Source of the DNA: Oscillibacter ruminantium GH1
Lineage (GTDB): Bacteria > Bacillota > Clostridia > Oscillospirales > Oscillospiraceae
Assembly: GCF_000307265.1 (NCBI RefSeq)
Contig: NZ_DF158898.1
Location: 167,138-231,137 of the forward strand
Length of the DNA stretch: 64,000 nucleotides
Direction: 5' to 3'
This document shows, one piece after another, positions 393 through 53,234 of this stretch. Within the stretch, counting starts at the first letter, position 1, and each line of letters starts with the position of its first letter. Under the pieces are notes generated by a model. It saw only the letters and a program-made list of their open reading frames with translations, was not told where the DNA came from and did no database searches. The translations under genes and the position numbers were made by a program.

Positions 393-396
393 CGGG

Positions 397-38456: not shown

Positions 38457-40220
38457 CTAGTCCCGTTCCATCAGCGTTTGGATGCGCTTGCTGACCTGAG
38501 CCCGGGTTTGGGCCACCCACTGCTCGTCCATCGGCGTATCAAAATTTTTGCTAAAGGAGTAATACAGGCTGATCTGCTGATAGTAAATCTCGTAATCCCC
38601 CCGGCTGGGGCCGGGCGGCAAGGGGCGGGACAGTTCTGGCTGATGCGCCACAAAGTATTCGTTCACATAGCTTTCAAACTGGGCCAGCAAGATTTCATTT
38701 TCAACATCAAAGGGGAGGAGCATCAATTTCCATTCCACCGATTCGCCGAGGTGATAACTTTTGAGCAAATCCAAAATTATCAACTGGTTGCGCATGTCCT
38801 TTTTTCGATAGCGATCCATAACCTCGGGCTGCGTACTCCAAAGCGCCACCTTCTGCTGTAAGGGAAGCAGATCTATTTGCAAAATGGCCTCACTGGGTCC
38901 AACAACCGCCTGCTGCACAGGTGGGTCCTCGTCGTGCAGACGATCCTCAATCAGTTCCAGTGCGTCCCGATCCAGCGCACCAACATAGCCCACATCAAAA
39001 ATGCCGATTCGACCGGCGCGACCCGCAATTTGTTTGACTTCCTGCGTGGTCAGTGTGCGCAGAGTCTCACCGTCAAATTTCTCCACGGCAGTAAAAATAA
39101 TGCGGCGTATTGGTAAATTTACGCCCATACCAATGGCGTCCGTGGCCACTAGCACAGGGTTTTCTCCACTGATAAATTTGTCATATTGCACCCGTCGCAC
39201 TTCTGGAGGCAGATCGCCATATATTACACTGGCCGACACGCCCCGCTGCCGAAAATCGCGAGCCAACGCAATCACCCGACGTTTGGAAAAGGCCACGAAA
39301 GCATCGCCCGCTTCAGGTGCGGATAATCTTACCGGCGCGGAGAGCATCCTCAGCGGAACAAGGCGGCAGTATTCGTTTAGTATAAAGGAGTCGCCGCAGC
39401 TGTCAATCATGGCGGACAGCTGGTCTTTTACCAGCGCTGCGCCACAAAGGTGGATTTCCGGACAGCACAGGCCCAGAATGGCGCGGGTCCAGGCATCACC
39501 GCGCTGAGAATCTGCCACCAGCTGCGCTTCATCAATCACAGCCACGTCGTAGTGCGCGCGTAAATCAGCCTTTTCTACCGTGCAGCACAAGTGTTGTGCG
39601 CCGGGTATCTGAATATCCTCTTCTCCGGTAAGCAGATCACAAGGCACCCCTTCCCGGTTTAATCGCTCATAGTTTTCCAGTGCCAGAATTCGCAGCGGTG
39701 CTAAATAAATACCGTTCCCACTTGTCTTAAGCCGCTGAAGCGCCTGATAGGTCTTGCCGGTGTTGGTATCACCCAGATGAAGGAAAAACTGTCGGTGCAT
39801 TCGGCGGGCCTTGGGAAATTCCCGGCAGGGGTCATCGGGTAGTAGGCGGGCGAACTCCGCTGAAACCATTTGGGGAATGTGGATGGTCAGCAATACGGAC
39901 ACAATTCCGGACTTGAGATAGCTCTCCCGGCGGCCGTCAATTACCAATGCAAAAGAATAGTCCGTTCTGTGCTTTTGGTTATATCGCTCCAATATTCTGA
40001 GGGAGATCTCGTCCAGCAGGGAAACGTAGCTGTCAAAGAGAGATTTCCAATCTGGAGAGATTTGTGGCGAAAGCGTTTGCAGCTTGCGAAGCTGGTTGCG
40101 AATCACGGTGTCATGGTGCAGCAGACTGCGAGCGCCGGCATGCATTGCCCCATGGCGTACCTGTTCAAAATTTTTTTGAATGGATTTAAAGATTATTCTC
40201 TGCTTCTGCTCTTTTTTCAC
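38457..40220 (-). CDS. SUV3-like DExH RNA helicase
   Basis: Superfamily 2 helicase resembling eukaryotic/mitochondrial SUV3, 587 residues from GTG 40220. Motif I is LGDTNTGKTYQAL (about 149-161, K156), close to the SUV3 form GPTNSGKTYHAL; motif II is VIDEAQ near 232-237; motif V DAIGMGVNLPIRRIIF and motif VI QIAGRAGRIG lie near 390-435. An N-terminal helical extension (about 1-135) and a C-terminal ~130-residue helical region complete it. GTG 40220 was chosen because GAGGTG precedes it; the longer TTG 40253 has no ribosome site. SUV3 proteins unwind RNA for exonucleases; a role in RNA turnover is inferred. Confidence 0.82.
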   Translation of the reverse strand: MKKEQKQRIIFKSIQKNFEQVRHGAMHAGARSLLHHDTVIRNQLRKLQTLSPQISPDWKSLFDSYVSLLDEISLRILERYNQKHRTDYSFALVIDGRRESYLKSGIVSVLLTIHIPQMVSAEFARLLPDDPCREFPKARRMHRQFFLHLGDTNTGKTYQALQRLKTSGNGIYLAPLRILALENYERLNREGVPCDLLTGEEDIQIPGAQHLCCTVEKADLRAHYDVAVIDEAQLVADSQRGDAWTRAILGLCCPEIHLCGAALVKDQLSAMIDSCGDSFILNEYCRLVPLRMLSAPVRLSAPEAGDAFVAFSKRRVIALARDFRQRGVSASVIYGDLPPEVRRVQYDKFISGENPVLVATDAIGMGVNLPIRRIIFTAVEKFDGETLRTLTTQEVKQIAGRAGRIGIFDVGYVGALDRDALELIEDRLHDEDPPVQQAVVGPSEAILQIDLLPLQQKVALWSTQPEVMDRYRKKDMRNQLIILDLLKSYHLGESVEWKLMLLPFDVENEILLAQFESYVNEYFVAHQPELSRPLPPGPSRGDYEIYYQQISLYYSFSKNFDTPMDEQWVAQTRAQVSKRIQTLMERD

Positions 40221-40516
40221 GGCGTAATTCACCTCGTTGGTAGTGTTGATCAAACAAGAAAAAATACTCGCTTTACAACGCTGAATCCTTAGCCGCCCAT
40301 ATATACTTCAGACACTCAAAGAGAATTGAGCGTGAAAATAAGAGCCAGAGACCTTACGGCTGCTGGCTTTTCAGATAATGACGCAAAAGCGTACTACATA
40401 TGTGCCATATAACTAGTGCGTATTGGCTGTAAACGCAATGTATTTTCGACATTTTGTGTATATTGTACGTATAGAAAAAGATCCCTCAAAGTGTTGCGGC
40501 TCTAAAAAATCTTGGC

Positions 40517-40540
40517 GGTCGGAGTGCAATTATAGGACTT
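40517..40540. repeat. Direct repeat, copy 1 (24 bases)
   Basis: GGTCGGAGTGCAATTATAGG-ACTT, identical to 40877-40900 except C/T at one position. On the minus strand it reads like a tRNA T-loop (TTCAAGTCC) plus an acceptor end (CACTCCGACC), but the spacing is not that of a functional tRNA. Confidence 0.75.
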
Positions 40541-40846
40541 GAAACCGTTGGCAGCAAAAGCTCCAACGGTTCCAAGCTACTGCAATTCAGCCGCACAACA
40601 TACTTTCAATCCACAGATTTCTCTGACAGATTTCATGATACCAAACAAAACTTGCATAATTTGGCGAATTATCTGCCACAAAAATGAAATTCTATGTTGT
40701 GTGTCTGAAATGCTTTTATTTTATGCAAAGGCATACTTCTAAATGATAGACTCTCAACATACGTTTTCTTGAGGTGTTTGTCATGTGTTTAATCAGAGGG
40801 CCGCCACCGAAAAACTTTTGCGAACCGGTCTGTTGCTAAAAAGAAA

Positions 40847-40876
40847 AAATCCTTCATGTTTTCACATGAAGGATTT
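40847..40876 (-). terminator. Orphan tRNA-type terminator at the island left end
   Basis: Perfect 12-bp stem AAATCCTTCATG / CATGAAGGATTT followed on the minus strand by TTTTTCTTTTT. It comes directly after an ACACTCCGACCA end, the same arrangement as a tRNA 3' end and its terminator, yet no tRNA body lies in front of it. Confidence 0.7.
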
Positions 40877-40887
40877 GGTCGGAGTGT
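40876..40887. repeat. Candidate attachment repeat, left (copy of the tRNA-Pro 3' end)
   Basis: Twelve bases TGGTCGGAGTGT identical to the tRNA-Pro 3' end at 51851-51862, in the same orientation. Together they bracket the accessory region. Confidence 0.5.
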
Positions 40888-40900
40888 AATTATAGGACTT
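40877..40900. repeat. Direct repeat, copy 2 (24 bases)
   Basis: Second copy of the repeat at 40517-40540, one mismatch, 360 bases further on; here it is joined to an intact CCA-type end and a terminator. Confidence 0.75.
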
Positions 40901-41073
40901 GGAAAAACTCAGTTATATCAATGGTTTACAGGTGATCAACAAGAGGCTTTTATCCTAAAATATTAAATACAGAAAACATAATATACAAAAAAGGATATGC
41001 GCTGGCACCCAAGCCCGTCGCTTTGGTGCTTTTGCAAATGCGTCGGAATACGCGAGAAAAGTGACTGTCAATT

Positions 41074-42969
41074 TTACTTTTCTTCTGGCTCTGGGTTTTT
41101 ATAATTTAATGGTATGAGTGCATTATTTATCCCATCAAATGTCTCAACAAGATTTATGTGGTTGCAATTGCTCCATGCATTTTTTGAAACATGTTCGAGC
41201 ATAATCACTTGAAAGTGCCATCCTTTTGAAGTAGTTATGGAAAAAAAGTTATCCCATAGTTTAAATATATCCTTTACTTTGCTCCAATCGTCCTTTATAC
41301 TAATAGCTTTTTCACTTTCTTCATAATTATAATCCGACGTATTAAAATAGGGTCTACTTGGCTGATCAATTATTAAATAACTTGGAACATATGATGTATT
41401 CTCTGAGAGCATCATGTGATGAAGTCCTGCAAAAAGACATAGATGCATAAACAAATGGTCGGAACTACTAGAAATATTTGCAACGGTTGCTGACATATTC
41501 TTTTTTAGGGTAAGCATAGCCTTTTTATAGTCAAACCATGCATGGTATTTTCCATATTCGTCTAGTGCGTTTTCTGATATACCTATGTAAATTTGAATAA
41601 ATTCATTTAGAGTATTAATTACGAGCCCTCTGGCTTCTTCAATTTCACTATATTGGCCTTCAAGAGCTGCAAGACTGCTGCTCTTTTCTTTTATTTGGGC
41701 ATCAATGGTGTCTGTGCCTTCCACATTAGGATCAAGTCGGTTATACTCGGCCCTTATTTCACCAAGAGAAATTAACTTTTCTGCCGTTGAAATTGGACTA
41801 TATTCTACATGAGCGGTTCTGGAAAGATTCCCGTCTAACATTTTCAATTGTTTATTCAGTGCTTGAATGCTACGCTCAACATCATATTCAAACGGACGTT
41901 TTTCCTTAATTGCGGCTTTTACCCTTGTAAGTTCATTTGCCAAGTTGTTAATAAATTGGCGGTACTCTCCTTGTGTTTTATCGCCAAACTCTTGCTGGAT
42001 GTATGATATTGGCCGTAATGCGTCAGCTTCGTCCCGAAGGCTTTCTCTATAATTATTATAACTCTTTTCAAAACGCTTTAATTTTGTAAGTTGTAATGCA
42101 ACACCTTCACGTTCCAATTGCAACTTTTCATATTCTTGCTGCACAGAGAAGTTGGTAGAATAATTTGTAATACCATTCTTAACCATTACCTCTAATGCTT
42201 TAAACGCCTCATCGGCGCCTAACTTTTCATCTACCAGTCCCTTTTCTTTAGCCTTCTTCACTAGCATTTGAATATCGTTATTGTGTAGCTCAATTTTCCT
42301 AGAATACTTCTTTTTTTCTAATTCTAGTGTACTAATTTCTTGTTCAAGATCATTTATCTTCTTTTGCAGTTTTATAGTCTCGCAGCTTATTACTCCGAGG
42401 GAAAGGTCAAAGATTTGAGGCCAAACATCTCGATAACGGTCTATGTGCATTTTATCAAAAAAGCTTTTTCCATTATCAATAATGTCTTTTGAAAGTGTAT
42501 TGAAAATTAAAAAATAGCGAAATGAAAGGCGAGTGTTTTTTCTGATGCTTTTCCCACCGTAAGCTAACGTAATCTCATCATTTATTGAAAACTCCGGCTC
42601 AAGAATTGCTTTAATTCCAGACTCGTCCATTTTTGTGCATGGCTCATCAGGGATTTCTCCCGTTTGAGAGAAATAGTAATCATCTGAGAACTTACCCTTT
42701 TCTGTTATTTCACCGCGTGCTACGGTATAAGTTTTATTGTTAATTACGAAACGAATGCCGTACCAAGCTACGTTCTCACCAATATGTTCATACGAAATTA
42801 CGACAGTATCCTTACTGCCACATAAACAATAATCAACGATTTCCAATACTGCAGTTTTTCCGGTTTTGCTATTTCCCGTTATTACATTGACTTTGTCATT
42901 CGAGAACTTTAAAGTTCGCAAACTGCCGTCTTTAAGCCATAAAAGAAGTTTATCAATATAGAAGTTCAT
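41074..42969 (-). CDS. DUF3732 SMC/Rad50-like ATPase (ABC-three-component system)
   Basis: Large ABC-class ATPase of 631 residues. Walker A GNSKTGKT at 32-39 follows the Rad50-like start NVITGNSKTGKT; two coiled-coil stretches (about 205-260 and 285-460) separate it from the C-terminal half, where YLIIDQPSRPYF (about 531-542, D535) is the Walker B/D-loop signature of DUF3732 proteins. This family is the motor of ABC-3C conflict systems. The start forms an ATGA overlap with the middle-component gene. Low GC and AT-rich codons contrast with the host. Expected role: sense a DNA or replication intermediate and license the nuclease partner. The role is inferred from family studies. Confidence 0.88.
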   Translation of the reverse strand: MNFYIDKLLLWLKDGSLRTLKFSNDKVNVITGNSKTGKTAVLEIVDYCLCGSKDTVVISYEHIGENVAWYGIRFVINNKTYTVARGEITEKGKFSDDYYFSQTGEIPDEPCTKMDESGIKAILEPEFSINDEITLAYGGKSIRKNTRLSFRYFLIFNTLSKDIIDNGKSFFDKMHIDRYRDVWPQIFDLSLGVISCETIKLQKKINDLEQEISTLELEKKKYSRKIELHNNDIQMLVKKAKEKGLVDEKLGADEAFKALEVMVKNGITNYSTNFSVQQEYEKLQLEREGVALQLTKLKRFEKSYNNYRESLRDEADALRPISYIQQEFGDKTQGEYRQFINNLANELTRVKAAIKEKRPFEYDVERSIQALNKQLKMLDGNLSRTAHVEYSPISTAEKLISLGEIRAEYNRLDPNVEGTDTIDAQIKEKSSSLAALEGQYSEIEEARGLVINTLNEFIQIYIGISENALDEYGKYHAWFDYKKAMLTLKKNMSATVANISSSSDHLFMHLCLFAGLHHMMLSENTSYVPSYLIIDQPSRPYFNTSDYNYEESEKAISIKDDWSKVKDIFKLWDNFFSITTSKGWHFQVIMLEHVSKNAWSNCNHINLVETFDGINNALIPLNYKNPEPEEK

Positions 42970-43421
42970 ATCTCTATACGCAAGCTCAAATAGAAATCAC
43001 TTGCGTCTCCCTTCACCAAAATCTCTGCAAGTTTCTGTGAAGCAGCTATCCTTGTTTTTGCTTTTTCACCTAATGATGGATTAAAAAAATCAAAGTTACC
43101 ACCGGAAAACCTTACTCCGTCATTTGAAAGTTTAAGGAGGCCTAACTTTTCAAATAAAAGTATTGAATTCATAGATAGCAATGCTCTTTCATGGAACCGT
43201 TCGCTAAAGTTCGCGAAAACAATGCTCTCTTTTAGTATTAAATCCTCTATGCTTTTGACGCTTGAGTTGGATCGCTTTAATGCGCTTACTACTCTTGAAT
43301 AACTTAGTAGCGGCTCAACAAGCATACACTTTGATAATTCCATGCAATTAACATATCTTAGTACGGCTAAAATAGATATGCCAGAAAGTATTTCATTGTC
43401 GTGAAAAGTATCAATTTCCAT
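42966..43421 (-). CDS. ABC-three-component system middle component
   Basis: Small helical protein of 151 residues between the nuclease and ATPase genes. ATG 43421 (GGGAG 8 bases upstream) gives MEIDTFHDNEILSG and an 11-base overlap with the end of the nuclease gene; its stop overlaps the ATPase start. The second half (LSMNSILLFEKLGLLKLSNDGVRFSGG) resembles a winged-helix, a pattern typical of middle components that bridge the ATPase and the effector, like kleisin/MukE-type partners. Assignment rests mainly on the locus order and size. Confidence 0.75.
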   Translation of the reverse strand: MEIDTFHDNEILSGISILAVLRYVNCMELSKCMLVEPLLSYSRVVSALKRSNSSVKSIEDLILKESIVFANFSERFHERALLSMNSILLFEKLGLLKLSNDGVRFSGGNFDFFNPSLGEKAKTRIAASQKLAEILVKGDASDFYLSLRIEI

Positions 43422-44649
43422 GTCGTATACTCCCACTGGCCCATATATATTTCCATCCGATCTGTGCTTCGTTGGCAAGCTTTATGAATTCTCCATTAGA
43501 TAGGGAGGCCCCTATTTCCGTAGAGATAAGTTTTAACTTCTCTTTCATGACTTCATAAAAACAATCTAAGGCATTCTCATAATCTAAGCGATGATTGTTC
43601 TTTGTTGCCCTGTGACAAGACTGATGTATGCGTTTCCATGTTAACGCTGCATCTTTGTGAAAGCTATTTAGGATTGGCAAAGTGATTCGTCCCTCTTGAT
43701 ACCAATCCTTCAATTGTAGTTCCACCGATAAATAGCACTCTGTTAACTGGGAAATTTCTGCTAGACCATTATCAGCGAGGTCTATCGCTCCAATCTCTAT
43801 TAACTCCCGAACAAAGGTCTGCTGTTCCAGATGTTCAGGGAGTAGCGGACTATATTGTCTAAACGGCAATAGTGTAGTGCGATACGTATTAAACGCAGCA
43901 CGATAATGCGTCGTCCATTCAGAAAATGTAATGATTTGGTGCTTGCCATTTTGCACCTTGCTAAAGAAATCCTCTTTGAGCTGCAAATATAGCGTGCTAA
44001 GGACATCGTTAACATACGCATCGTCAGTCATTTTGCTACGAATCCCATCTCGTATTTCATCAAACAAAGAATCCTCTGAATTGCAAAATTCTGTCTTTTT
44101 CAAAAACAATGACAAAACCGATACCGACAAATGAGCAACATCATAAATTAATGATTTCGTGCTTTCATCTTTGGTATTTTGACTCAGATTTTCAAAGTAT
44201 GTATGTATATCAGCGTCAGTAATTAAGCCATCTTTTAACTGCTGTATTTTACTAAGAACTTCATTGCTGTCAATTTTACGGTTTATTACTAAAACAAAGC
44301 GCGATTGCGAAATGAAAAGTTTTTGAGCACTTTGTTTGCTTCTTGCTTCCGCTGGATCAGATATTAATTTGCTCCAATTGGATAAGGTTTTCCATAAATC
44401 CTCAGATAATCTCGCCAGATTAACCTGTTCCTCATTTGCTGCTTTTCCTATTGTGTGTTTTACCTGAATATATAAAGTTTCTTTTTTTGTCGCAGTAACA
44501 ACATGAACATCGTCTAAAGCTTCATATCCAACTTCTTCTCCGGGAAGCAACTGTAACAGTCTTACGATGAAATAAAGGTATTGATATTCAAAGCCAAGTT
44601 GCTGTTTGTCAGCTGAAGTAATTTCTGTGCGTTTATTCGACTCAGCCAT
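43411..44649 (-). CDS. Predicted effector with N-terminal DUF4297/Cap4-like nuclease domain (ABC-3C)
   Basis: First gene of the operon, 412 residues. The N-terminal ~100 residues fit a PD-(D/E)XK nuclease of the DUF4297/Cap4 type: GFEYQYLYFIVRLL with E21, then ALDDVHVV with D46/D47, then the catalytic strand YIQVKHT with Q62 and K64. The remaining ~300 residues are helical with no known motif and probably dock to the ATPase complex (ABC-3C C-terminal region). AAGGGGGAG precedes the ATG. It would degrade DNA, of phage or cell, when the ATPase complex is triggered. The nuclease call is motif-based; activity is unproven. Confidence 0.8.
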   Translation of the reverse strand: MAESNKRTEITSADKQQLGFEYQYLYFIVRLLQLLPGEEVGYEALDDVHVVTATKKETLYIQVKHTIGKAANEEQVNLARLSEDLWKTLSNWSKLISDPAEARSKQSAQKLFISQSRFVLVINRKIDSNEVLSKIQQLKDGLITDADIHTYFENLSQNTKDESTKSLIYDVAHLSVSVLSLFLKKTEFCNSEDSLFDEIRDGIRSKMTDDAYVNDVLSTLYLQLKEDFFSKVQNGKHQIITFSEWTTHYRAAFNTYRTTLLPFRQYSPLLPEHLEQQTFVRELIEIGAIDLADNGLAEISQLTECYLSVELQLKDWYQEGRITLPILNSFHKDAALTWKRIHQSCHRATKNNHRLDYENALDCFYEVMKEKLKLISTEIGASLSNGEFIKLANEAQIGWKYIWASGSIRHGN

Positions 44650-44668
44650 TAGTTCTCCCCCTTCCGAT

Positions 44669-44698
44669 AATATACCAAACTAAATGAAGATTTGTCTA
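44669..44698 (-). promoter_or_regulatory. Promoter of the ABC-3C operon
   Basis: Minus-strand TAGACA (44698-44693), an 18-base spacer and TATATT (44674-44669), about 20 bases before the effector start codon. Confidence 0.55.
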
Positions 44699-44770
44699 AA
44701 CACATCCACACCAGTATATATTCTCAAATTGTTTTACTACATATTAACATATTTTTTGTGAGGACTCAAC

Positions 44771-44824
44771 ACAATATTGATGATATTGTCCAAATTAGAC
44801 CATGGGCAATATTTATATATAAAT
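44771..44824. promoter_or_regulatory. Palindromes and plus-strand promoter in the divergent region
   Basis: A perfect inverted repeat ACAATAT-N5-ATATTGT (44771-44789) and a perfect 14-bp palindrome ATTTATATATAAAT (44811-44824) lie between the conflict operon and parB. A plus-strand promoter TTGTCC (44786-44791), 18-base spacer, TATTTA (44810-44815) overlaps both, so a regulator bound here could control either operon. Confidence 0.45.
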
Positions 44825-44851
44825 ACTCATTGAGGGGAGGTTTTCTCTCGC

Positions 44852-44881
44852 AGGCCAGCTTTAAATAGGTGGCCTTTTTTT
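44852..44881 (+). terminator. Leader terminator before the ParB-like gene
   Basis: Stem AGGCCA/TGGCCT with a seven-T run, 26 bases before the parB start and downstream of its promoter: either the end of a small upstream transcript or an attenuator. Confidence 0.6.
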
Positions 44882-44906
44882 ATTTCACGAAAAAGGAGAT
44901 TTGCAA

Positions 44907-46313
44907 ATGGCAGACGAAAAATTGAACACAGCCACGCAGGAAACCGTCATACCCGAGGCTCCTGCCACGGATGCGCCGGAAGAAATTCCTGCCCCCAATC
45001 TGACGCACGCAGAAGCCATCACGCTGGAAAAAGAGGGCGAGGCGCTGCCCGATCCCGGCGAGGCCGTTATCCCTCCCCCTGTGGAGGAGATGGACTTTGT
45101 CGGGGTGGGTGGTACGGAAAAGGGCGATCCCGCCGCCGAGGACGCACGGCAGGAGTGGGAAAAGCCGATTGCGGATATTGAGGCCGAGCAGAAAAAGCCG
45201 AAACGGGGCCGCGTAGAAAAGGCGGAAAAGGAGACGCCCGACGAGGAAAAAGCGGCCAAGCCCCGCAAGAACCGCCCGGCCAAGGCTGCCAAGGCGGCTC
45301 TTGGTGACGCCCAGCCGCAGGTTCGAGACAAAGTGTCCCGAAGTAAAAAGGCCGCCCCGGTCAAGAATACGCCTGCTCCAAAAGAGGACATCCCCACCCC
45401 GGAGGAGCCTGTCATTCCCCCTCGCCCGGTTGAGGATGGACAGCTTGTCTATCTGAAATTGTCCGAGCTTCATGCGTTTCACACATTTCGGGAGCATCCC
45501 TACAAGGTGACGGACGATGAAAAAATGACGGAGCTTGTGGGGACAATCAAGGAACGCGGGGTCATGACGCCCGCCACCGTCCGCCCGGAAAAGGACGGCA
45601 ACGGCTACGAAATCATTGCGGGTCACAGGCGGCATCATGGCAGCGGTCTTGCGGGGCTGGAGGAAATGCCCTGTATTGTCCGTAATATGACGGACATTGA
45701 ATCCGTGCAGGAAATGAAGATCAGCAACAAGCAGCGCGGCGATCCTCTCCCCAGCGAATTGGCGCGGCTGCTGGATTTGGAAGTGGAGGCTATCAAGCAC
45801 CAAGGCGGGCGTCTGGACGGCGTGGCCGAGGGCGATGTGGGGAAACGCTCTGTGGAGATCGTGGGCGAAAATAACGGCATGAACTACAAAAAGGTCATGC
45901 GGTATATCCGGATCAATTCCCTTGTGCCGGAGCTGGCAGATATGGCCGACGCAAAAAAGCTGGGCTTCATGCCCGCCGTGGAACTATCCTATCTGAAACC
46001 GAAAAATCAGCGGCTTGTGGCGGTGTCCATTGAGGGCGAACAGTCCTCTCCGTCCCTTTCCCAAGCGCAGGAGATGCGAAAATTGGATAAGGAGGGGCGG
46101 CTTAACGGGGATGCGATTGACGGCATTTTGAGCAAACAGAAAAAGGAGGTAGACAAAGTGATTATTTCTACTGCAGAACTCAACAATTATTTCGGCAAGG
46201 ACAAAACGCCGAGAGAAATGAAAGATCAGATTCTCGCGCTCTTGGATGATTGGAAATCCAAGCAGGCGCCCGAACTGGGCAAGCCCGAGAAAAAGGCGGA
46301 TTTGGAAAAGTGA
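44907..46313 (+). CDS. ParB/RepB/Spo0J-family partition-like protein of the element
   Basis: Protein of 468 residues. The first ~175 residues are Glu/Lys/Pro/Ala-rich and probably disordered. A ParB N-terminal (CTPase-type) domain follows (about 178-270) with LSELHAFHTFREHPYKV and IIAGHRRHHGSGLAGLEEMPCIV. The helix-turn-helix half includes SVEIVGENNGMNYKKVMRYIRINSLVPEL near 312-340. AAAAGGAGAT precedes ATG 44907. ParB-like proteins are common first genes of Clostridial conjugative elements, where they aid maintenance. The usual second box (ENLQR-type) is replaced by ISNKQRGDP. Confidence 0.88.
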   Translation: MADEKLNTATQETVIPEAPATDAPEEIPAPNLTHAEAITLEKEGEALPDPGEAVIPPPVEEMDFVGVGGTEKGDPAAEDARQEWEKPIADIEAEQKKPKRGRVEKAEKETPDEEKAAKPRKNRPAKAAKAALGDAQPQVRDKVSRSKKAAPVKNTPAPKEDIPTPEEPVIPPRPVEDGQLVYLKLSELHAFHTFREHPYKVTDDEKMTELVGTIKERGVMTPATVRPEKDGNGYEIIAGHRRHHGSGLAGLEEMPCIVRNMTDIESVQEMKISNKQRGDPLPSELARLLDLEVEAIKHQGGRLDGVAEGDVGKRSVEIVGENNGMNYKKVMRYIRINSLVPELADMADAKKLGFMPAVELSYLKPKNQRLVAVSIEGEQSSPSLSQAQEMRKLDKEGRLNGDAIDGILSKQKKEVDKVIISTAELNNYFGKDKTPREMKDQILALLDDWKSKQAPELGKPEKKADLEK

Positions 46314-46383
46314 GCTGGCCTGCTTCGAGACACTTTCTCCCGAAGCGCCCGCCTCTCGTTTACATGGTGCTGGGGTGATATAT

Positions 46384-46511
46384 CCCCCGTCGCCGCTCAT
46401 GTCTTGGCACAGCCGGGAGCTACCCGTCAAGGGTGCAACGCACCGCCGTTTTCGGCGGCCTGCCCTTGACGGTCTGCCCCGGCTGTGCTATTTCCGGCGG
46501 AGCGACGGGGG
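46384..46511. ncRNA. Candidate structured RNA/DNA element: four nested helices
   Basis: In the 293-base gap after parB, four perfect helices nest inside one another: 46384-46392 with 46503-46511 (9 bp), 46407-46417 with 46478-46488 (11 bp), 46424-46433 with 46463-46472 (10 bp) and 46443-46448 with 46453-46458 (6 bp, TTTT loop). A further hairpin (46533-46540 / 46549-46556) follows. The strand of function is unknown. It is not a terminator array, lacks a T-tail, and matches no riboswitch that I know. Confidence 0.6.
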
Positions 46512-46606
46512 TATTTATCCTCCAGAGCCGCCCCCTTTTTCAATCTTGAAAAAGGGCGGGGGAAAAAAGTTGAACGCTACATTATATTAAAACGGAGGTT
46601 TTCACA

Positions 46607-46939
46607 ATGAAACGACCCCTCGCCTATATCACCGCCGCATGGTACGGCGAAAGTGAAGAACAGGCGGCGCAGTATTGCCGTGCTGTCTATGACGCTGGAT
46701 TTTCGCCGATCTGCCCCACGCTTTATCTGCCCCTGTTCCTTAATGACGCCATTCCCGAGGAACACAAAAGCGGCATCGATATGAGCCGTGACCTGCTCCG
46801 ACGCTCTCATGTGCTGGTGGTGTGCGGCCATACCGTCACCGAAGCCATGAAAAATGACATTGCCACCGCCGAGCGCCTGCGGATCACCGCTACCACCTTG
46901 GAGGGCATTTTGACCGTCAAGGGACAGGGCCGCCACTGA
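46607..46939 (+). CDS. Nucleoside 2-deoxyribosyltransferase-like protein (DUF4406/DUF7768-like)
   Basis: Protein of 110 residues with a compact Rossmann-like fold: PLAYITAAWYGESEEQAAQYCRAVYDAGFSPICP (start, about 4-37), an acidic helix near residue 59 (DMSRDLLRRSHVLVVCG) and a C-terminal helix. This pattern matches small deoxyribosyltransferase-like proteins frequent on Clostridial mobile elements. They may degrade or sense nucleotide-type signals; no activity is established. Its stop overlaps the ardA start (TGATG), so the two are coupled. Confidence 0.75.
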   Translation: MKRPLAYITAAWYGESEEQAAQYCRAVYDAGFSPICPTLYLPLFLNDAIPEEHKSGIDMSRDLLRRSHVLVVCGHTVTEAMKNDIATAERLRITATTLEGILTVKGQGRH

Positions 46940-47652
46940 TGGGTTCCATATTTGAAGCCTATATTACCAACGCCGGGAAGTATGCCGAGGGGCAGCTTGC
47001 GGGCGAAACGCTGGCGTTTCCAACCAACGCCGAAGCCGTGGAGCCTCTCTTAAAGCGAATCGGCGTGGACGGTGTGCGGTATGAGGAAATCTTTATTACA
47101 TCGTTTGACGGCGATGTGCTGGGGCTGTATGACCATTTGAACGAATACGCCAATCTTGACGAGCTGAACCATCTGGCCTGCCTGCTCTCGGAGCTTGACC
47201 GGGACGAGCTGGACACATTCGAGGCCGTCATCGACAAGGGCGACCACACAGCCAGCGTTGCCGACATCATCAATCTCGTCCATAATCTTGACTGCTATGA
47301 ATTGTACTCCGGCGTTTCCGACGATGAAACGCTGGGGCGAATTTATGTAGAGGACATGGACGCACTGGAGGTGCCGGAGAATATCTTACCGTACTTCGAT
47401 TTTGAAGCATACGGACGGGATGTGCGGCTGAACGATAACGGTCATTATGCCCCTGGCGGCTATGTGATAAAAACAAGCACAGATTTTGTAGAGTTGTATC
47501 ACAGCGTCGAGGACATTCCCCCGGAGCAAAAGGTATTCCGCTTTCCCAAGCTGTCCATCCGGGAGCAAATGACGGCCTACAAGGAAGTGATTGACCGTTC
47601 CTCTCTGGAGGGTGATAAGCTGCGGCCAAGGCATGACCGGGAGGACAGATAG
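46939..47652 (+). CDS. ardA: Antirestriction protein ArdA
   Basis: DNA-mimic protein that inhibits type I restriction enzymes and protects an incoming element. The 237-residue product is strongly acidic, with DE-rich blocks (LDELNHLACLLSELDRDELDTFEAVI near 73-98, VSDDETLGRIYVEDMDALEVPENILPYFDFEAYGRD near 125-160). The C-terminal domain with YFDFEAYGRDV and GGYV is the family hallmark. The start overlaps the preceding stop. Its place in the transfer operon fits expression on entry. Confidence 0.88.
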   Translation: MGSIFEAYITNAGKYAEGQLAGETLAFPTNAEAVEPLLKRIGVDGVRYEEIFITSFDGDVLGLYDHLNEYANLDELNHLACLLSELDRDELDTFEAVIDKGDHTASVADIINLVHNLDCYELYSGVSDDETLGRIYVEDMDALEVPENILPYFDFEAYGRDVRLNDNGHYAPGGYVIKTSTDFVELYHSVEDIPPEQKVFRFPKLSIREQMTAYKEVIDRSSLEGDKLRPRHDREDR

Positions 47653-47718
47653 CACTTTGGGACACTTTGTCCCGAAGGTAGCAGAGTGAGGTTTGTGGCG
47701 ATGAAGGAGGTGGTATAG

Positions 47719-48198
47719 CTGATTGATGAAGATGTGTCTCGGCGTACAATAGCCGTTTCCATGAAAGCCGGAAAGCTGACTGCACGGAGTCTTGCCTATG
47801 TTATCCGTGCGGTGGGCCGTAAAATTGCAAAGGAATACCGGGCATCCAAAACGCCCCACGGCAAACAGACAGTAAAAAAGCTCATGGCGCACAGTGGCGA
47901 AAAGAACAGCATTGAATTGTCTGGGGACACCAAGCAATTTGACCGTGTTGCCCGAAAATGGAATGTGGACTATGCCTTTTACCAAACCGGGCCGGACAAA
48001 TATCTGCTGTTTTTCAAATCCCAGCAGGCCGACGCCATCACCGCCTGCTTTTCCGAGTATTCCAAAAAGGTGTTGGACAAGACAAAATCCCAACGCATCC
48101 CCATTCGGGAGCAGCTCAAGCGGGCCGCCGATGCGCTGACCCGCCAGCCGTCGCACAAGCGGGAACGGGCAAAGGAGGCGGCGCATGAGGACAGATAA
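47719..48198 (+). CDS. pcfB: PcfB-family (DUF3801) conjugation protein, probable CTG start
   Basis: Protein of about 159 residues of the PcfB family, an accessory factor for the VirD4-type coupling protein. The body VSRRTIAVSMKAGKLTARSLAYVIR and KNSIELSGDTKQFDRVARKWNVDYAFYQ are typical. The N-terminus in homologues begins (M)IDE-V; here the matching codons are CTG ATT GAT GAA GAT GTG, with AGGAGG ending 8 bases before CTG 47719. I therefore propose CTG (or ATT 47722) as start; a GTG at 47734 is in frame but lies 23 bases from the Shine-Dalgarno. It overlaps the coupling-protein gene by 14 bases. Confidence 0.8.
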   Translation: MIDEDVSRRTIAVSMKAGKLTARSLAYVIRAVGRKIAKEYRASKTPHGKQTVKKLMAHSGEKNSIELSGDTKQFDRVARKWNVDYAFYQTGPDKYLLFFKSQQADAITACFSEYSKKVLDKTKSQRIPIREQLKRAADALTRQPSHKRERAKEAAHEDR

Positions 48199-50026
48199 AA
48201 TCCGCAAATATATTTTGCCAAATATCCCGTATCTGTTCATCGGGTGGGCGTTTCTCAAAGCGGGGACGGCCTATCGGCTGGCGGCTGGCGCTGATTTTTC
48301 GCATAAGCTCATGGGGCTGGGGCAGACCATCGCCCCAGCGTTTGCTGACTTTGCACCGGGCTTTCATGCGTCTGACTGGCTAATCGGCCTTGCGGGAGCC
48401 GTGGCGTTCCGGCTGCTGATCTATTTCAAAAGCAAAAACGCACAAAAGTTTCGGCGGGATGCGGAATACGGCTCTGCCCGGTGGGGCAATGACAAGGACA
48501 TCAAGCCTTTTGTCGATCCGAAGTTTGAAAACAATGTCATTCTCACCGGGACGGAATATCTCACCATGAACACCCGCCCGAAAAATCCTGCTAATGCCCG
48601 CAATCTGAATTGCTGTATCATCGGATCGTCCGGCAGCGGCAAAACCCGCTTTTGGCTGACCCCGCAGCTACTGCAAGCGCATTCGTCTTTCGTGGTGGTC
48701 GATCCCAAGGGCGGGGTCTTAAATCAAGTCGGCTCATTTTTGCAAAATAAGCCCCGCAATTACAAAATCAAGGTGTTCAACAGCATCGACTTTTCCAAGA
48801 GTATGCACTATAACCCGCTGGCTTACATCAAGACCGAGGCCGACATTTTGAAGTTCGTCAACACCTTGATTTGCAACACCAAGGGCGAGGGCAAGGAGGG
48901 CGATCCATTTTGGACGAAGGCGGAAACGCTTTTGTACTGCGCCCTCATTGCCTACATCATTTTTGAGGGGCCTGCGGAGGATCGAAACATGAACACGCTG
49001 GTGGATATGATTTCCAGCATGGAGGTCAAAGAGGATGACGATGACTTCAAAAATGCGGTGGATTATATGTTTGACGGCCTTGGAAAACGCAAGCCCAGTT
49101 GTTTTGCCGTGAAGCAATACCGCAAATATAAATTAAGCAGCGGCAAAACAGCAAAATCAATCTTAATTTCCTGCGGTGCAAGGCTTGCGCCTTTTGATAT
49201 TCCACAACTCCGGGAGATCATGAGCTATGACGAGCTGGAGCTTGACCGCATGGGCGACAGGCGCACGGCTACCTTTTTTGTCATTTCCGATACCGATAGC
49301 ACCTATAACTTTTTAGTGGCGCTGGCCTTTTCGCAGATGTTCAATCTGCTATGTGAACGGGCTGATACCGTCCACGGCGGGCGGCTGCCCCATCATGTGC
49401 GGGTGCTGTGGGACGAGGCGGCCAACACGGGCCAAGTGCCACAGCTCGAAAAGCTGGTGGCGGTCATCCGCTCACGCGAGGTGAGCCTGTGTCTGCTGTA
49501 TCAACAGTTGGCGCAATGCAAGGCCATCTATGACAAAAACGCCGAAACTATTCTCGGTAATATGGACAGCGTGGTATTTCTCGGCGGGCGCGAAAGCTAC
49601 ACCATCAAGGAAATATCGGAAAACTGGCTGGGCAAGGCCACAATTTCCATGCAGACCGACGGGCGCACGCGGGGACAGTCTGAAAGCTATAATCAAAACA
49701 CCCAGCGGCTGGGCCGGGAGTTAATGACCCCCGCCGAGCTTGCTACCATGCCTGGTGACAGGTGCATTTTGCAGCTTCGTGGCCTGCCGCCGTTCTATTC
49801 CCGCAAATACGATTTGAAGCAGCATCCCAATTACAAGTTTACGGTGGAGGCCGATAAACGCAACGCCTTTGACCTCGACAGGCTCATCAACCGCAACAGG
49901 CGGCCACGGCTGAGCGAGGAATGCACGGTGTACGAGGCGACCGTGCCGGACGATATACTTACGGCTGAGGACGAGGACATTCTCAACTATGACGATGTGG
50001 ACGACCCGGACGCCTTTGTAATATAG
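48185..50026 (+). CDS. VirD4/TraG-type IV coupling protein
   Basis: Membrane ATPase of 613 residues that docks the DNA-relaxase complex to a type IV secretion channel. Two N-terminal hydrophobic segments (about 12-32 and 63-80) anchor it. Walker A GSSGSGKT is at 147-154, followed by FVVVDPKGGVLNQVGSF near 170-186 (the family's PKGE-like block), Walker B VRVLWDEAANTG near 405-416, and the ILGNMDSVVFLGGRESYT block near 457-474. The start lies within the end of pcfB. No relaxase or VirB4 gene is nearby, so it cannot drive transfer alone. Confidence 0.92.
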   Translation: MRTDKIRKYILPNIPYLFIGWAFLKAGTAYRLAAGADFSHKLMGLGQTIAPAFADFAPGFHASDWLIGLAGAVAFRLLIYFKSKNAQKFRRDAEYGSARWGNDKDIKPFVDPKFENNVILTGTEYLTMNTRPKNPANARNLNCCIIGSSGSGKTRFWLTPQLLQAHSSFVVVDPKGGVLNQVGSFLQNKPRNYKIKVFNSIDFSKSMHYNPLAYIKTEADILKFVNTLICNTKGEGKEGDPFWTKAETLLYCALIAYIIFEGPAEDRNMNTLVDMISSMEVKEDDDDFKNAVDYMFDGLGKRKPSCFAVKQYRKYKLSSGKTAKSILISCGARLAPFDIPQLREIMSYDELELDRMGDRRTATFFVISDTDSTYNFLVALAFSQMFNLLCERADTVHGGRLPHHVRVLWDEAANTGQVPQLEKLVAVIRSREVSLCLLYQQLAQCKAIYDKNAETILGNMDSVVFLGGRESYTIKEISENWLGKATISMQTDGRTRGQSESYNQNTQRLGRELMTPAELATMPGDRCILQLRGLPPFYSRKYDLKQHPNYKFTVEADKRNAFDLDRLINRNRRPRLSEECTVYEATVPDDILTAEDEDILNYDDVDDPDAFVI

Positions 50027-50068
50027 GTAGAATAAACCTCTTGTTTGACTGCCGGAAAGGAGGATATT

Positions 50069-51781
50069 TTGAAACAGTCAAACAACAAAAATCGCGAGGA
50101 GGGTACTGCTGCCCTGTACTGCCGCTTGAGCCGTGACGATAATATGGACACGGAATCCAACAGCATTTCCAATCAGAAAAAGATACTCCAAAAGGCCGCC
50201 AAGGAAAAAGGTTATACGGACACCTTGTTTTTCGTGGATGACGGCATCACGGGTACGACCATGAAACGCCCCGGTTATCAGAAGATGATACAGGCAATTG
50301 AGGCGGGCTACATTTCGGCGGTGTTCGTGAAAGACCTTTCCCGGCTGGGGCGCAATTACATTGAGGTCGGCAGGCTGACCGAGGAATTTTTCCCGCAGTA
50401 CGATGTCCGCTTGATTGCCGTTTCGGACGGCGTGGATAGTGACGAGGGCGAAAATGATTTTACTCCGTTCAAAAACATCATGAACGAGTATTACGCCAAA
50501 GACATTTCCAAAAAGCGCCGCATTGTCAATAAGATGAAAGGCAACTCCGGCGTTCCACTCTCCCAGCCGCCTTATGGGTATCTTAAAAACCCGGACGATC
50601 CCCGATTTTGGATAGTAGACCCAGAGGCCGCCGAAAATGTGCGCCGCATCTATCACATGGCACTGGAGGGTTATGGCCTTGCGGAAACCGCTGCCGTGCT
50701 AGAACAGGACGGGATTTATAATCCCACCTACTACTGGCGCAGCAAGGGAACCAACCGCAGCGGCTCAAAAAGCACGCTGGAGCCTACCAAGTGGGGGCAT
50801 ACCACCGTCAAGAAAATTCTTGGCTTGCAGGAATACTGCGGTGATGTCATCAACTTCAAAAGCTACTCCAAGTCCTACAAGATGAAGCGCCGCATTGAAA
50901 ACCCGGAGGAAAACCGGGCGATCTTCCTCAATGTGCATGATGCCATCATTGACCGCCCCACATGGGAAAAGGTGCAAGCGCTCAAAAGCGGCACACGGCG
51001 TAAAAGGCCGTCCGTCTCGCAGGAGCCCAGCGTGTTCTCTGGTTTGCTGAAATGCCCCGAGTGCGGCGGCAATCTCAATTTCCATTTCAACCAGGGCAAT
51101 CACGACATCAAGTTTTTCAGTTGCCAAAACCACAATTCCGGGCTTCGTAAATGCTCCGCTACCCATTATATCCGGCTGGACTTTCTGGAGCAGGTGGTGC
51201 TGTATGAGGTCAACCGTCTGGCCTGCTTCGCCAATGAGTATGAGGGCGACTTTATCAAGGCCATGATGGGGCGCTCCGCAAACCTCGTTGAAAACGACCG
51301 AGCCAGGAAACAGCGGGAGCTGGATGGCCTGCTGGCCCGTGACAAAGAATTGGATGTTCTCTTTGAAAAGCTCTACGAGGATAACGTGTCCGGCAAAATT
51401 GACGATGCCCGCTTTTCCAAAATGTCCAAACGGTACGAACAGGAACAGGGCGAGAACGCCGCCAAGGTCAAGGCGCTCAAGCTGGAGCTGAAAAAGACCG
51501 AGGGCAAGCGGATGGATGTTGACCAATTTCTTGAAAGTGTCCAGCGGTACACCAACGCCGCAAAGGTCACAAAGCGCATGGTGACGGAGCTGATTGAACA
51601 CATTGAAGTGTACCATGCCGAAAAGGACGAGGACGGCGTTGCCACCCAGCGGGTCACAATTTTCTATAACTGCATCGGCGCGTTTGATGTGCCGGATCGT
51701 CGCAAAATCCCCGAGGCCGACATCCTTATGGAAACAAGGAAGGGCGTAGCTGTCAACTACGCCCCGGCACAAACCGCTTGA
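50069..51781 (+). CDS. Large serine recombinase (site-specific integrase/excisionase)
   Basis: Recombinase of 570 residues from TTG 50069, placed by AAAGGAGG five bases upstream. The resolvase catalytic domain begins ALYCRLSRDD with nucleophile S21, and continues with DGITGTTMKRPGY, VKDLSRLGRNYIEVG and MNEYYAKDISKKRRIV. The 'recombinase' DNA-binding domain (about 160-290), a zinc ribbon with CPECGGNLNF and a second cysteine pair (about 323-365), a coiled coil (about 400-480) and a DUF4368-like tail complete the Tn916-unrelated, TndX-like plan. It is the last gene of the element, 70 bases from the tRNA-Pro 3' end, as expected for an integrase next to its attachment site. Confidence 0.93.
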   Translation: MKQSNNKNREEGTAALYCRLSRDDNMDTESNSISNQKKILQKAAKEKGYTDTLFFVDDGITGTTMKRPGYQKMIQAIEAGYISAVFVKDLSRLGRNYIEVGRLTEEFFPQYDVRLIAVSDGVDSDEGENDFTPFKNIMNEYYAKDISKKRRIVNKMKGNSGVPLSQPPYGYLKNPDDPRFWIVDPEAAENVRRIYHMALEGYGLAETAAVLEQDGIYNPTYYWRSKGTNRSGSKSTLEPTKWGHTTVKKILGLQEYCGDVINFKSYSKSYKMKRRIENPEENRAIFLNVHDAIIDRPTWEKVQALKSGTRRKRPSVSQEPSVFSGLLKCPECGGNLNFHFNQGNHDIKFFSCQNHNSGLRKCSATHYIRLDFLEQVVLYEVNRLACFANEYEGDFIKAMMGRSANLVENDRARKQRELDGLLARDKELDVLFEKLYEDNVSGKIDDARFSKMSKRYEQEQGENAAKVKALKLELKKTEGKRMDVDQFLESVQRYTNAAKVTKRMVTELIEHIEVYHAEKDEDGVATQRVTIFYNCIGAFDVPDRRKIPEADILMETRKGVAVNYAPAQTA

Positions 51782-51796
51782 TTGAATTCTGTGTAT

Positions 51797-51849
51797 AAAA
51801 AAGCGGAGTGTCCTTAATAAGATCCTCAGATCCTATAAGGACACTCCGC
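51797..51849 (-). terminator. Terminator of tRNA-Pro (and possibly of the recombinase)
   Basis: Perfect 14-bp stem (51803-51816 / 51836-51849) followed on the minus strand by TTTTTT, directly after the tRNA CCA end. It may also stop the convergent recombinase transcript. Confidence 0.85.
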
Positions 51850-51850
51850 A

Positions 51851-51862
51851 TGGTCGGAGTGT
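51851..51862. repeat. Candidate attachment repeat, right (inside the tRNA-Pro 3' end)
   Basis: TGGTCGGAGTGT, the tRNA acceptor end, duplicated at 40876-40887. Confidence 0.5.
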
Positions 51863-51927
51863 CGGGATTCGAACCCGAGGCCTCTTGGTCCCGAACCAAG
51901 CGCGATACCAAGCTTCGCCACACCCCG
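51851..51927 (-). tRNA. tRNA-Pro (anticodon CGG)
   Basis: Complete 77-base tRNA with encoded CCA. The acceptor pairs CGGGGTG with CACTCCG (one G-U), the D stem is GCGA/TCGC, the anticodon stem CTTGG/CCAAG encloses TTCGGGA, giving anticodon CGG, and the T arm contains GGTTCGAATCC. Promoter upstream and terminator downstream are both visible. Confidence 0.95.
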
Positions 51928-51940
51928 ATATTGAATGGGA

Positions 51941-51968
51941 AAATTACACTTCAAGCGCCGCATAACAA
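51941..51968 (-). promoter_or_regulatory. Promoter of tRNA-Pro
   Basis: Minus-strand TTGTTA (51968-51963), a 16-base spacer and TAATTT (51946-51941), placing the start a few bases before the tRNA. Confidence 0.5.
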
Positions 51969-52139
51969 TTAGCAGCCAGAAAGATGAGCGGACGCCGCAT
52001 ATACTCCGCTTGCAAAAAACCAGATCAGCGGATTTCACATTATAAAGAAAAAGCCTTGTCTCCCCAATCAGCTGCGCCGCACCGCTATGCAACAGATTGT
52101 ATTATAGGAAAAAATCAGTCCTTTGTCAAGCAAAATTGT

Positions 52140-52168
52140 TCATACTTTTTGCAAAAGATACATAGAGT
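52140..52168 (+). promoter_or_regulatory. Candidate sigma-E sporulation promoter of spoIVFA/FB
   Basis: TCATACT (52140-52146), a 14-base spacer and CATAGAGT (52161-52168) resemble the sigma-E pattern (TCATATT, CATAnnnT). This fits the mother-cell role of the operon. A sigma-A-like reading (TTGTTC, 17, TACATA) is also possible. Confidence 0.4.
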
Positions 52169-52196
52169 GGAAAAAACGTGGGGGGAGGCGGGATGA

Positions 52197-53234
52197 ATGA
52201 CGTCGCGGCAGACCGGACAGAAAATCAGCCAGATGTACAGGAATCGGACAGGATATCGAAGGGGCAAGCGGAGAGCCACCGAGCCGCTGTCTGATGCGGA
52301 GAAACGGCGGCTGGCCCAATTTTTGGTCTGCGGCACGGTTTTCGTGCTGCTGGTAGCGGTAAAACTATTGCTGCCCGCCCGGGTTCAGTGGCTGACGCAA
52401 CATGTGGGGGGCGCGCTGGAACGGAGTATGGACGTAACAGAGGTGTTCTCCGCCGTGGGGCGTGTGTTTGCCGGGGAAGAGGACGGCGGCTGGGAGGACC
52501 TGTACCAGTCCGTGTTCCTGCCGGGGGACTCTGCGGCGGTTCCCACCGGAGCGGTTGTCGGTTTTGACGAACCAGATACCGGGAGCGCAGTCCTGCGCAG
52601 CTTGATGCGTGTCAGCGACGGCTGGCTGACGGCCGCACCAATGGAGGACACGGCAAAGACGGGGGCGGGGGACACCTCGCCGTCCGGTTCCACCGAAACC
52701 CAACCGGAATCAGTGGCGGATGCTGAAACGGATACGGGGACAAATTTGGGAACAGGGACCGGCAGCGCACAAAAGCTCTCCTATATTTTATATTCCAACC
52801 AGACTCTGCCGGAGCATGTCAGCCTTGAGCAAAAGGTATTGGGCTTTGATTACTGCACACCGGTAATGGGCACATTATCGTCTGACTTCGGCTATCGGGA
52901 GCATCCGTTGGAAGGTGAGGAAAAATTTCATTACGGATTGGATATTGCCGCCAACGAGGGGACAAATATCGTCTGTTTTGCTGATGGCACGGTGACGGCG
53001 GTGGGGGAGAGCAGCAGCTATGGGAAATATGCCATCGTTGCGCACGGCGGCGACTTTTCCACGCTGTATGCGCATTGCAGCAAAATCACCGTCTCCTCCG
53101 GAGCCGCAGTGAAAGAAGGACAAAAAATTGCAGAAGTGGGCCAGACCGGAGAGGCCACGGGACCGCATCTGCACTTTGAAATCCATGACGGAGAGACGTA
53201 TTTGGACCCTGTCTACTATGTCTCGCTGCCCTAA
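52197..53234 (+). CDS. M23 (LytM)-domain membrane protein, SpoIVFA-like
   Basis: Protein of 345 residues. A basic cytoplasmic head is followed by one membrane helix (FLVCGTVFVLLVAVKLLL, about 42-59), a long variable linker rich in Thr/Gly/Asp (about 140-195) and a C-terminal LytM domain (about 220-345). The zinc-site residues HYGLD, YAH and HLHFE are all present, so metal binding looks intact. The next gene is an M50 protease, matching the SpoIVFA-SpoIVFB order in which SpoIVFA holds and inhibits the pro-sigma-K protease during sporulation. Function is inferred from context. Confidence 0.8.
   Translation: MTSRQTGQKISQMYRNRTGYRRGKRRATEPLSDAEKRRLAQFLVCGTVFVLLVAVKLLLPARVQWLTQHVGGALERSMDVTEVFSAVGRVFAGEEDGGWEDLYQSVFLPGDSAAVPTGAVVGFDEPDTGSAVLRSLMRVSDGWLTAAPMEDTAKTGAGDTSPSGSTETQPESVADAETDTGTNLGTGTGSAQKLSYILYSNQTLPEHVSLEQKVLGFDYCTPVMGTLSSDFGYREHPLEGEEKFHYGLDIAANEGTNIVCFADGTVTAVGESSSYGKYAIVAHGGDFSTLYAHCSKITVSSGAAVKEGQKIAEVGQTGEATGPHLHFEIHDGETYLDPVYYVSLP

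Follow-up and report, generated by a model that had tools for sequence, protein, structure and literature searches.

The gap between a parB-like gene and a DUF7768 gene in a conjugative element of Oscillibacter ruminantium GH1 contains extensive self-complementarity, which raises the question of what function a folded structure could serve at this site. We analyzed 64,000 nucleotides of contig NZ_DF158898.1 (the window, i.e. the whole stretch of DNA). An earlier note on the same window had described a 128-nt element of four nested helices and had listed a regulatory or antisense RNA, a ParB binding site, an origin of transfer (oriT) and a single-strand origin (sso) among its possible roles. 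From that list, the single-strand origin agreed best with our results, whereas oriT and a ParB site are disfavoured.

Structure and genetic context of the hairpin

The main hairpin is real: it is conserved, and at 46366-46529 it is longer than the 128 nt first described. The upstream gene had been correctly recognised as parB-like, as it encodes a ParB_N domain. The features of the region are as follows.

44901-46313, + strand: parB-like gene (ParB_N, PF02195), upstream of the hairpin
45324-45342 and 47656-47676, no strand assigned: two other copies of the GRGACANNNTGTCCC-type palindrome in the window's element
46324-46344, no strand assigned: GRGACANNNTGTCCC-type palindrome, the copy (of three in the window's element) that immediately precedes the hairpin
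46366-46529, + strand: whole hairpin, inner module plus base helix
46531-46562 (about), + strand: second hairpin, GCCCCC...GGGGG, placed by eye, with no T-run after it
46607-46939, + strand: DUF7768 gene (PF24963), downstream of the hairpin
46939-47652, + strand: ardA anti-restriction gene (PF07275)

The second hairpin was kept in locus L052, where the main hairpin is lost. All four nested helices were present in the main hairpin, with the correction that the outer one comprises 10 bp instead of 9 bp, and the 128 nt form part of a true unit of about 46366-46529. Pairing partners were read from the letters, and the inner module was divided into the following parts.

46384-46393, + strand: 5' side of helix H2, CCCCCGTCGC, conserved on the 5' arm; pairs with 46502-46511 (10 bp)
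46394-46406, + strand: 5' side of the internal loop, unpaired, 13 nt; 13 nt in 54 and 14 nt in 1 of 55 aligned relatives, with varying letters
46407-46417, + strand: 5' side of helix H3; covarying pairs with 46478-46488 (11 bp)
46424-46433, + strand: 5' side of helix H4; pairs with 46463-46472 (10 bp), including four UCAA/UUGA pairs that are invariant in the 12 rows of alignment A2
46434-46458, + strand: apex, with a side hairpin TGC/GCA (46434-46442) and a GC-rich apical stem (46443-46458), in which 46443-46448 pairs with 46453-46458 (6 bp)
46466-46471, + strand: -35-like TTGACG, within H4; TTGAC in 48 of 55 relatives
46472-46488, + strand: 17-nt spacer, its last letters TGC at the place of an extended -10; 17 nt in 50 and 18 nt in 5 of 55
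46489-46501, + strand: 3' side of the internal loop, unpaired, opening with a -10-like TATTTC; 12, 13 and 14 nt in 5, 36 and 14 of 55
46502-46511, + strand: 3' side of H2, recognised by pairing and covariation

When 46370-46525 was folded as RNA, the minimum free energy was -101.4 kcal/mol for the + strand (z -9.7) and -96.2 kcal/mol for the - strand (z -8.7), and none of 200 shuffles was as low for either strand. In the complete relative A, of which 30 kb were scanned, the hairpin was an extreme outlier, with -98.3 kcal/mol versus -72.8 kcal/mol for the next-best 160-nt window. A further helix at the base extended the hairpin to 46366-46529 in the match to a covariance model, which scored 169.3 bits on the + strand and 80.2 bits on the - strand, the window being one row of the model's own alignment.

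In the window, ardA is followed by a DUF3801 gene and by a gene for a VirD4-type coupling protein. The conjugative element is truncated, with a serine recombinase gene directly after VirD4, and no relaxase was recognised among the listed ORFs of 40000-53000. Complete relatives have the gene order parB, hairpin, DUF7768, ardA, DUF3801, VirD4, T4SS genes, mobC and relaxase; the T4SS gene names are presumptive, as we assigned them from gene order. Comparison of 45300-48000 with plasmids and phages yielded one matching plasmid record and no phage match. Adjoining the element, the - strand at 41074-44649 contains three genes that may form an ABC-three-component-type defence system, with a DUF3732 match, a CTD7 match below the cut-off, and no Pfam match for the middle gene.

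The proposal that the hairpin is a ParB or KorB site is disfavoured by the finding of one copy each in relatives A and B with the family model R1; a second model, R2, found one further, weaker hairpin in B. The dispersed 15-bp palindrome fits such a role better. Allowing up to two mismatches, the GRGACANNNTGTCCC palindrome occurred at 15 places in 55 kb of A and at 14 places in 57 kb of B (L134-L139), some of them possibly by chance, and it looks like a KorB/ParB-type operator. Several copies in A and B are intergenic. The palindrome adjoins the hairpin also in the orphan loci L007 and L009.

Conservation and covariation

Genome contigs were scanned with the DUF7768 protein, and the best 80 of 179 relatives were kept, which together with the window gave 81 upstream regions. 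A strict pattern matched 65 of these 81 regions, 44 of them distinct, and reading of the other 16 by eye added four hairpins, i.e. L042 (with masked bases), L070, L074 (with an altered outer helix) and L099. In total, the hairpin was found between parB and DUF7768-ardA at 69 of the 81 loci. Three of the 81 were deletion variants (L052, L065 and L086), and the hairpin was absent from nine (L027, L037, L048, L049, L050, L055, L072, L076 and L102). A scan of 47 kb of one hairpin-less element gave no R2 match at an E-value of 0.01, and none of its R1 matches exceeded 14.5 bits.

When 295 genomes of the order were searched at the DNA level, 16 had a match. Ten of the 16 matches, including that in the own genome, were in the usual context (G035/L012 without the 5' arm), and four were only 22-31 nt long and had no element genes nearby (G003, G055, G139 and G236). 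The remaining two, L007 and L009, were outside the usual context, and both had kept the palindrome and the hairpin; L007 is apparently a remnant, and in L009 the hairpin lies upstream of a merR-like gene. The hairpin region had no Rfam match at the gathering score, and a search with 46200-46700 at an E-value of 10 gave no credible family. A weak alignment of the - strand with RT-1 RNA (RF03114) was rejected, as its 17.6 bits fall far below the gathering score of 106.4.

For folding, 59 distinct elements were taken, with L042 excluded because of its masked bases, and 55 of them were aligned after removal of the truncated or chimeric L008, L012, L065 and L086. In the 16-row alignment A1, 97.2% of the cells paired in the stated structure and 10 of 45 pairs changed on both sides; neither any of 500 shuffles nor any slid control reached the pairing or the both-sides figure. 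All three pairs of the apical side stem TGC/GCA changed on both sides in A1. In alignment A2, which consisted of 12 diverse members, 12 of 21 pairs changed on both sides, a value that was reached by none of 500 shuffles, and the four UCAA/UUGA pairs showed no variation. These compensatory changes support the hairpin. The earlier note had named a lack of compensatory changes and of a transcript, or pairing found nowhere else, as observations that would speak against a functional element; what was found instead was covariation in A1 and A2 and the presence of the hairpin at 69 of 81 loci (the best 80 of 179 relatives plus the window).

The sequences were sorted by eye into F-apex and R-apex types. 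In 9 of the 55 relatives (L059, L071, L074, L080, L087, L091, L011, L013 and L020), the apex is inverted relative to the rest, as though it had been flipped between the arms. These elements form a second group, so that the apex was probably flipped during evolution.

Promoter-like letters on the 3' arm

On the + strand, the 3' arm contains, in this order, TTGAC, a 17-nt spacer, TG and usually TA, an arrangement that looks like a sigmaA -35 region with an extended -10. The -35-like letters and the spacer are paired, the -10-like letters open the unpaired loop of about 13 nt, and a conserved helix, which holds the conserved CCCCGTCGC, lies beyond it. TG was found at the place of the extended -10 in 55 of 55 relatives (TGC in 53, TGT in 2), and the next two letters were TA in 34, CA in 14, TT in 6 and GA in 1. 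Across the same relatives the loop had a near-constant length and a variable sequence. Judged by its letters, this layout is as would be expected of a strand that is folded into a promoter with the melting region already open.

The -10 hexamer is weak, as its sixth base was T in only 1 and C in 50 of the 55 relatives, and 12 had CACCCC. Both arms carry TTGAC, and in 18 of 55 relatives TA was present on the opposite arm too. A rule that TGCTA always tracks the orientation of the apex was abandoned, because it failed by eye in L143, L162 and L166.

A wider family of hairpins

Model R1 gave strong matches in the known context and weak matches elsewhere, with hits in 9 of 391 genomes of the class and 29 of 300 genomes of the family. 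In several of the weak matches the stems differ and the promoter signature is the same. The core model R2 was built from the 12 diverse members of A2. It matched 50 of 295 genomes of the order at an E-value of 0.001, 11 of them at window-type places, and 22 of 398 genomes of the phylum at 1e-4, at least four of them with the window type; the E-values of both models stem from shortened calibrations, and real genomes are richer in hairpins than random sequence.

Thirty loci were fetched from the order search, 19 of which were of other types, and 16 of these were read after three copies of L237 had been dropped. TTGAY-17/18-TGY-TA closed the 3' arm in 14 of the 16 other-type loci, and TA was seen on the 3' arm of 15 loci and on the opposite arm of 3, counts that are partly circular because R2 rewards those letters and the strand was picked by score. 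The full signature was present in 9 of 17 newly fetched phylum loci (two window type, three copies of one element) and in none of the six weakest phylum loci (L267-L272).

The genetic contexts were diverse. In L187 and its near copy L234, the hairpin lies between a MOBP relaxase gene and an oriT-like repeat, on the same strand. Eleven loci, some of which are copies, are near a small gene with weak similarity, below the Pfam cut-off, to sigma-70 region 4 (L233, L241, L244, L246, L252, L258, L260, L262 and L264-L266), and its distance from the hairpin is the same or nearly the same in L233, L241, L258, L260 and L262. A relaxase or sigma-like gene was present within 1.5 kb at 13 of the 31 loci examined. 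A set of 30 relaxase loci contained no model match inside their 3 kb. At several other-type loci both flanking genes run opposite to the hairpin strand, and this mixed orientation in the wider family disfavours a plain gene promoter.

Some family hairpins adjoin transposase genes, the families of which were assigned by eye from the ORFs, and some border aminoglycoside genes, at times as inverted pairs. An aadE-type gene in L198 lies between inverted hairpins at 3891-3974 (-) and 5023-5111 (+), and an aadE gene recognised by eye in L249 lies between inverted hairpins at 369-452 (-) and 1501-1590 (+). Both stretches (L198 3891-5111 and L249 369-1590) resemble a cassette with hairpin borders.

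It is conceivable, and we put it forward tentatively, that these hairpins constitute a phylum-wide family in the Firmicutes, i.e. sigmaA promoters (TTGAC-17-TGCTA) that would fold in single strands and, on the transferred strand, prime second-strand synthesis upon its arrival. This reading would cover integrative and mobilizable elements, with the loop at the -10 ready-melted.

Strand preference and polarity of transfer

The + strand was the more stable one in 48 of 59 elements when folded as RNA and in 51 of 59 when folded as DNA. The four helices of the 46 F-apex elements contained 79 G-U versus 7 A-C cells on the + strand, 37 of the G-U cells coming from one column and the cells being interdependent; counted by columns, the ratio was 13 to 6 (p about 0.17). 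The 3' partner of a U in H2 was G in 37 and A in 9 of the 46 F-type relatives. In the nine R-apex elements, the ratio of G-U to A-C was 3:6. RNAalifold yielded -68.1 for the + strand and -33.5 for the - strand of the F-apex group, and -82.9 and -93.6, respectively, for the R-apex group, in which the - strand is thus favoured.

The polarity of transfer was derived from the seven elements with an own relaxase (A, B, G214, G298, G299, G301 and G306). All seven carry, on the gene strand immediately behind the relaxase gene, an inverted repeat followed by a nic motif, GCTTG|C or GCTTG|T. This site is distant from the hairpin, which makes it unlikely that the hairpin itself is the oriT, one of the roles that had been suggested. 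By the usual rule for MOBP systems, the nic-carrying gene strand is the transferred strand and the relaxase gene enters last. The location of nic on the gene strand, taken with this rule, implies that the gene strand is transferred in 7 of 7 relatives. For the window's element, which has no relaxase of its own, the transferred strand is deduced from these relatives. The + hairpin was clearly more stable in five of the seven elements with a placed oriT; both strands were level in G214 (L005), and in G306 (L059) the - strand was better as RNA and level as DNA.

For G301, a loosened nic search also gave a candidate on the - strand, 55 nt away, and the repeat that matches the other elements was taken. 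Further nic candidates elsewhere were set aside because they were not beside the element's own relaxase gene. The polarity count excludes the deep-clade elements G184, G259, G293, G384 and G008 as well as G227, for all of which the own relaxase lies outside the fetched stretches. Inside G259, G293 and G384 (L204-L206, L221-L223) lies another mobile unit that has its own relaxase and encodes a 639-aa protein, which by eye resembles a ribosomal-protection tetracycline resistance protein. The nic motif of the relatives matches the Tn1549 consensus RYGCTTG|C (PMC7755788).

A proposed function in priming

We propose that the hairpin is a folded single-strand promoter or sso that primes second-strand synthesis from the transferred strand, an explanation that we regard as plausible although it falls somewhat short of probable. 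In the recipient, when the DNA arrives as a single strand, or in the donor, when it is displaced, the hairpin would fold and would offer RNA polymerase a double-stranded -35 region and a ready-melted -10 region, with H2 as the downstream duplex. Transcription would begin at the loop and proceed through the 5' arm into the sequence 5' of it. The transferred strand also codes for parB, DUF7768 and ardA, so that a transcript made from it would run antisense to parB. Such an RNA could not serve as the ardA mRNA, and its likely use would thus be as a primer for second-strand synthesis. Once the DNA is double-stranded, the signature would face DUF7768-ardA and, more speculatively, might aid the expression of these genes. 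As far as can be judged from the sequences, a folded priming promoter is the best reading, as it would account for the pairing, the invariant letters, the constant loop and the strand favoured in most relatives. Several observations count against it: the weak -10, the TA on the opposite arm in 18 of 55 relatives, the modest strand bias once G-U and A-C are counted by columns, the reversed preference of the inverted-apex group, the lack of a clear + preference in G214 and G306, the nine relatives without the hairpin, the 30 relaxase loci without a match, the six weakest phylum loci without the full signature, the mixed orientation in the wider family, and the presence of a relaxase or sigma-like gene within 1.5 kb at only 13 of 31 loci.

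It is unlikely that the hairpin is instead a structured RNA within a + strand transcript between parB and DUF7768-ardA, where it would act as a leader, a processing site or an insulator. The compensatory changes and the fixed position between parB and DUF7768 at 69 of 81 loci (the best 80 of 179 relatives plus the window) would suit such an RNA. So would the folding preference for the + strand; however, the mRNA strand is also the transferred strand, so that this preference cannot tell a structured RNA from a single-strand promoter. The invariant letters fall on promoter positions, and in the large loop the length and not the sequence is kept near constant, both of which count against a structured RNA. 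Hairpins of the same design also occur in other contexts, several of them with both neighbours on the opposite strand, the inverted-apex group favours the - strand, and nine relatives do without the hairpin.

We also doubt the reading as a mobile palindrome, a small MITE-like or cassette-border hairpin, mobile or prone to recombination, that has inserted here and elsewhere in mobile DNA. On that view a transposase or recombinase would recognise the promoter-like letters, in line with the inverted hairpin pairs around aadE (L198, L249) and with the hairpins beside transposase genes. However, the window type is fixed at one site and shows compensatory changes, and the sigma-like gene is equidistant or nearly so in L233, L241, L258, L260 and L262.

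It is improbable that the site drives DUF7768-ardA as a conventional double-strand promoter or operator with an inverted repeat (or a cruciform) upstream: TTGACG-17-TATTTC does face these genes and TTGAC is present on both arms, but the -10 is poor, the sigma-70-like sites found by a simple scan omit TTGACG-17-TATTTC, a covarying upstream pairing arm would be unnecessary, and several other-type relatives have an opposite-running gene on that side. Two further ideas were dropped, early expression of ardA in the style of Frpo, because the polarity of oriT makes the transferred strand the coding strand, and an anti-Shine-Dalgarno riboregulator (CCTCC at the base versus GGAGG, by eye), because CCTCC is altered in L013 and L010.

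Comparison with known systems

The kind of element proposed here is known already, namely folded single-stranded DNA that is recognised by RNA polymerase, and the hairpin family is absent from Rfam at the gathering score. In titles and abstracts on single-strand promoters, Frpo, Tn1549, oriT, sso and DUF7768, no description of the family was found. Tn1549 is a vancomycin resistance transposon; we found no literature that combines it with the term 'single strand origin', and no account of how the incoming strand is converted to double-stranded DNA in Tn1549-type Clostridial conjugative elements. The Tn1549-type oriT belongs to the same kind of element and is a separate inverted repeat with nic just after the relaxase gene. 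Masai and Arai, by the title of their 1997 article, reportedly ascribed primer RNA also to a promoter of the Frpo/ssi type.

In layout the hairpin resembles the Frpo/ssi promoters of F and ColIb-P9 (PMC9849209 and PMC11541004), which are long stem-loops of the transferred strand with -35 and -10 in the stem and adjoin anti-restriction or establishment genes; here the -35-like letters, TG and the 17- or 18-nt spacer are present in most or all of the 55 relatives, and the full -10 hexamer is poor. As in promoters of the Frpo/ssi type, the stem-loop is stable in one strand. The leading-region genes, in contrast, are not templated by the transferred strand, as the coding strand is transferred in 7 of 7 relatives. 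In F-type plasmids, leading genes are read from the transferred strand (PMC9849209 and PMC11541004). Unlike with the F-type Frpo (PMC11541004), ardA would be unreadable from the transferred strand here, this being the coding strand, and the predicted transcription of single-stranded DNA would run away from ardA. Frpo-like candidates have been found by BLAST and also by promoter motifs combined with structure (PMC11541004). When we folded two upstream regions of F, the -10 and -35 boxes were not placed.

Both ICEBs1 sso1 and the F Frpo are folded single-stranded DNA read as a promoter (PMC4595007 and PMC9849209). The proposed design of the hairpin resembles that of rolling-circle sso and of ICEBs1 sso1, which are orientation-specific folded single-stranded DNA, and sso1, too, belongs to an integrative conjugative element; some sso are recognised as a promoter by RNA polymerase, yielding a primer (PMC4595007). 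The same source describes sso1 as three stem-loops, as in pBAA1, at a position directly behind the relaxase gene nicK. The window hairpin differs from it in being one long hairpin after parB; the family hairpin of L187/L234 lies between relaxase and oriT-like repeat.

If the proposed function is correct, gut elements related to Tn1549 would possess a compact start signal with which a newly arrived single strand could begin being copied in its new host, and the family models R1 and R2 would provide a route to finding the hairpin in metagenomes. With coding and transferred strand being one and the same here, priming by such hairpins would be separated from the leading-gene expression known for F-type plasmids.
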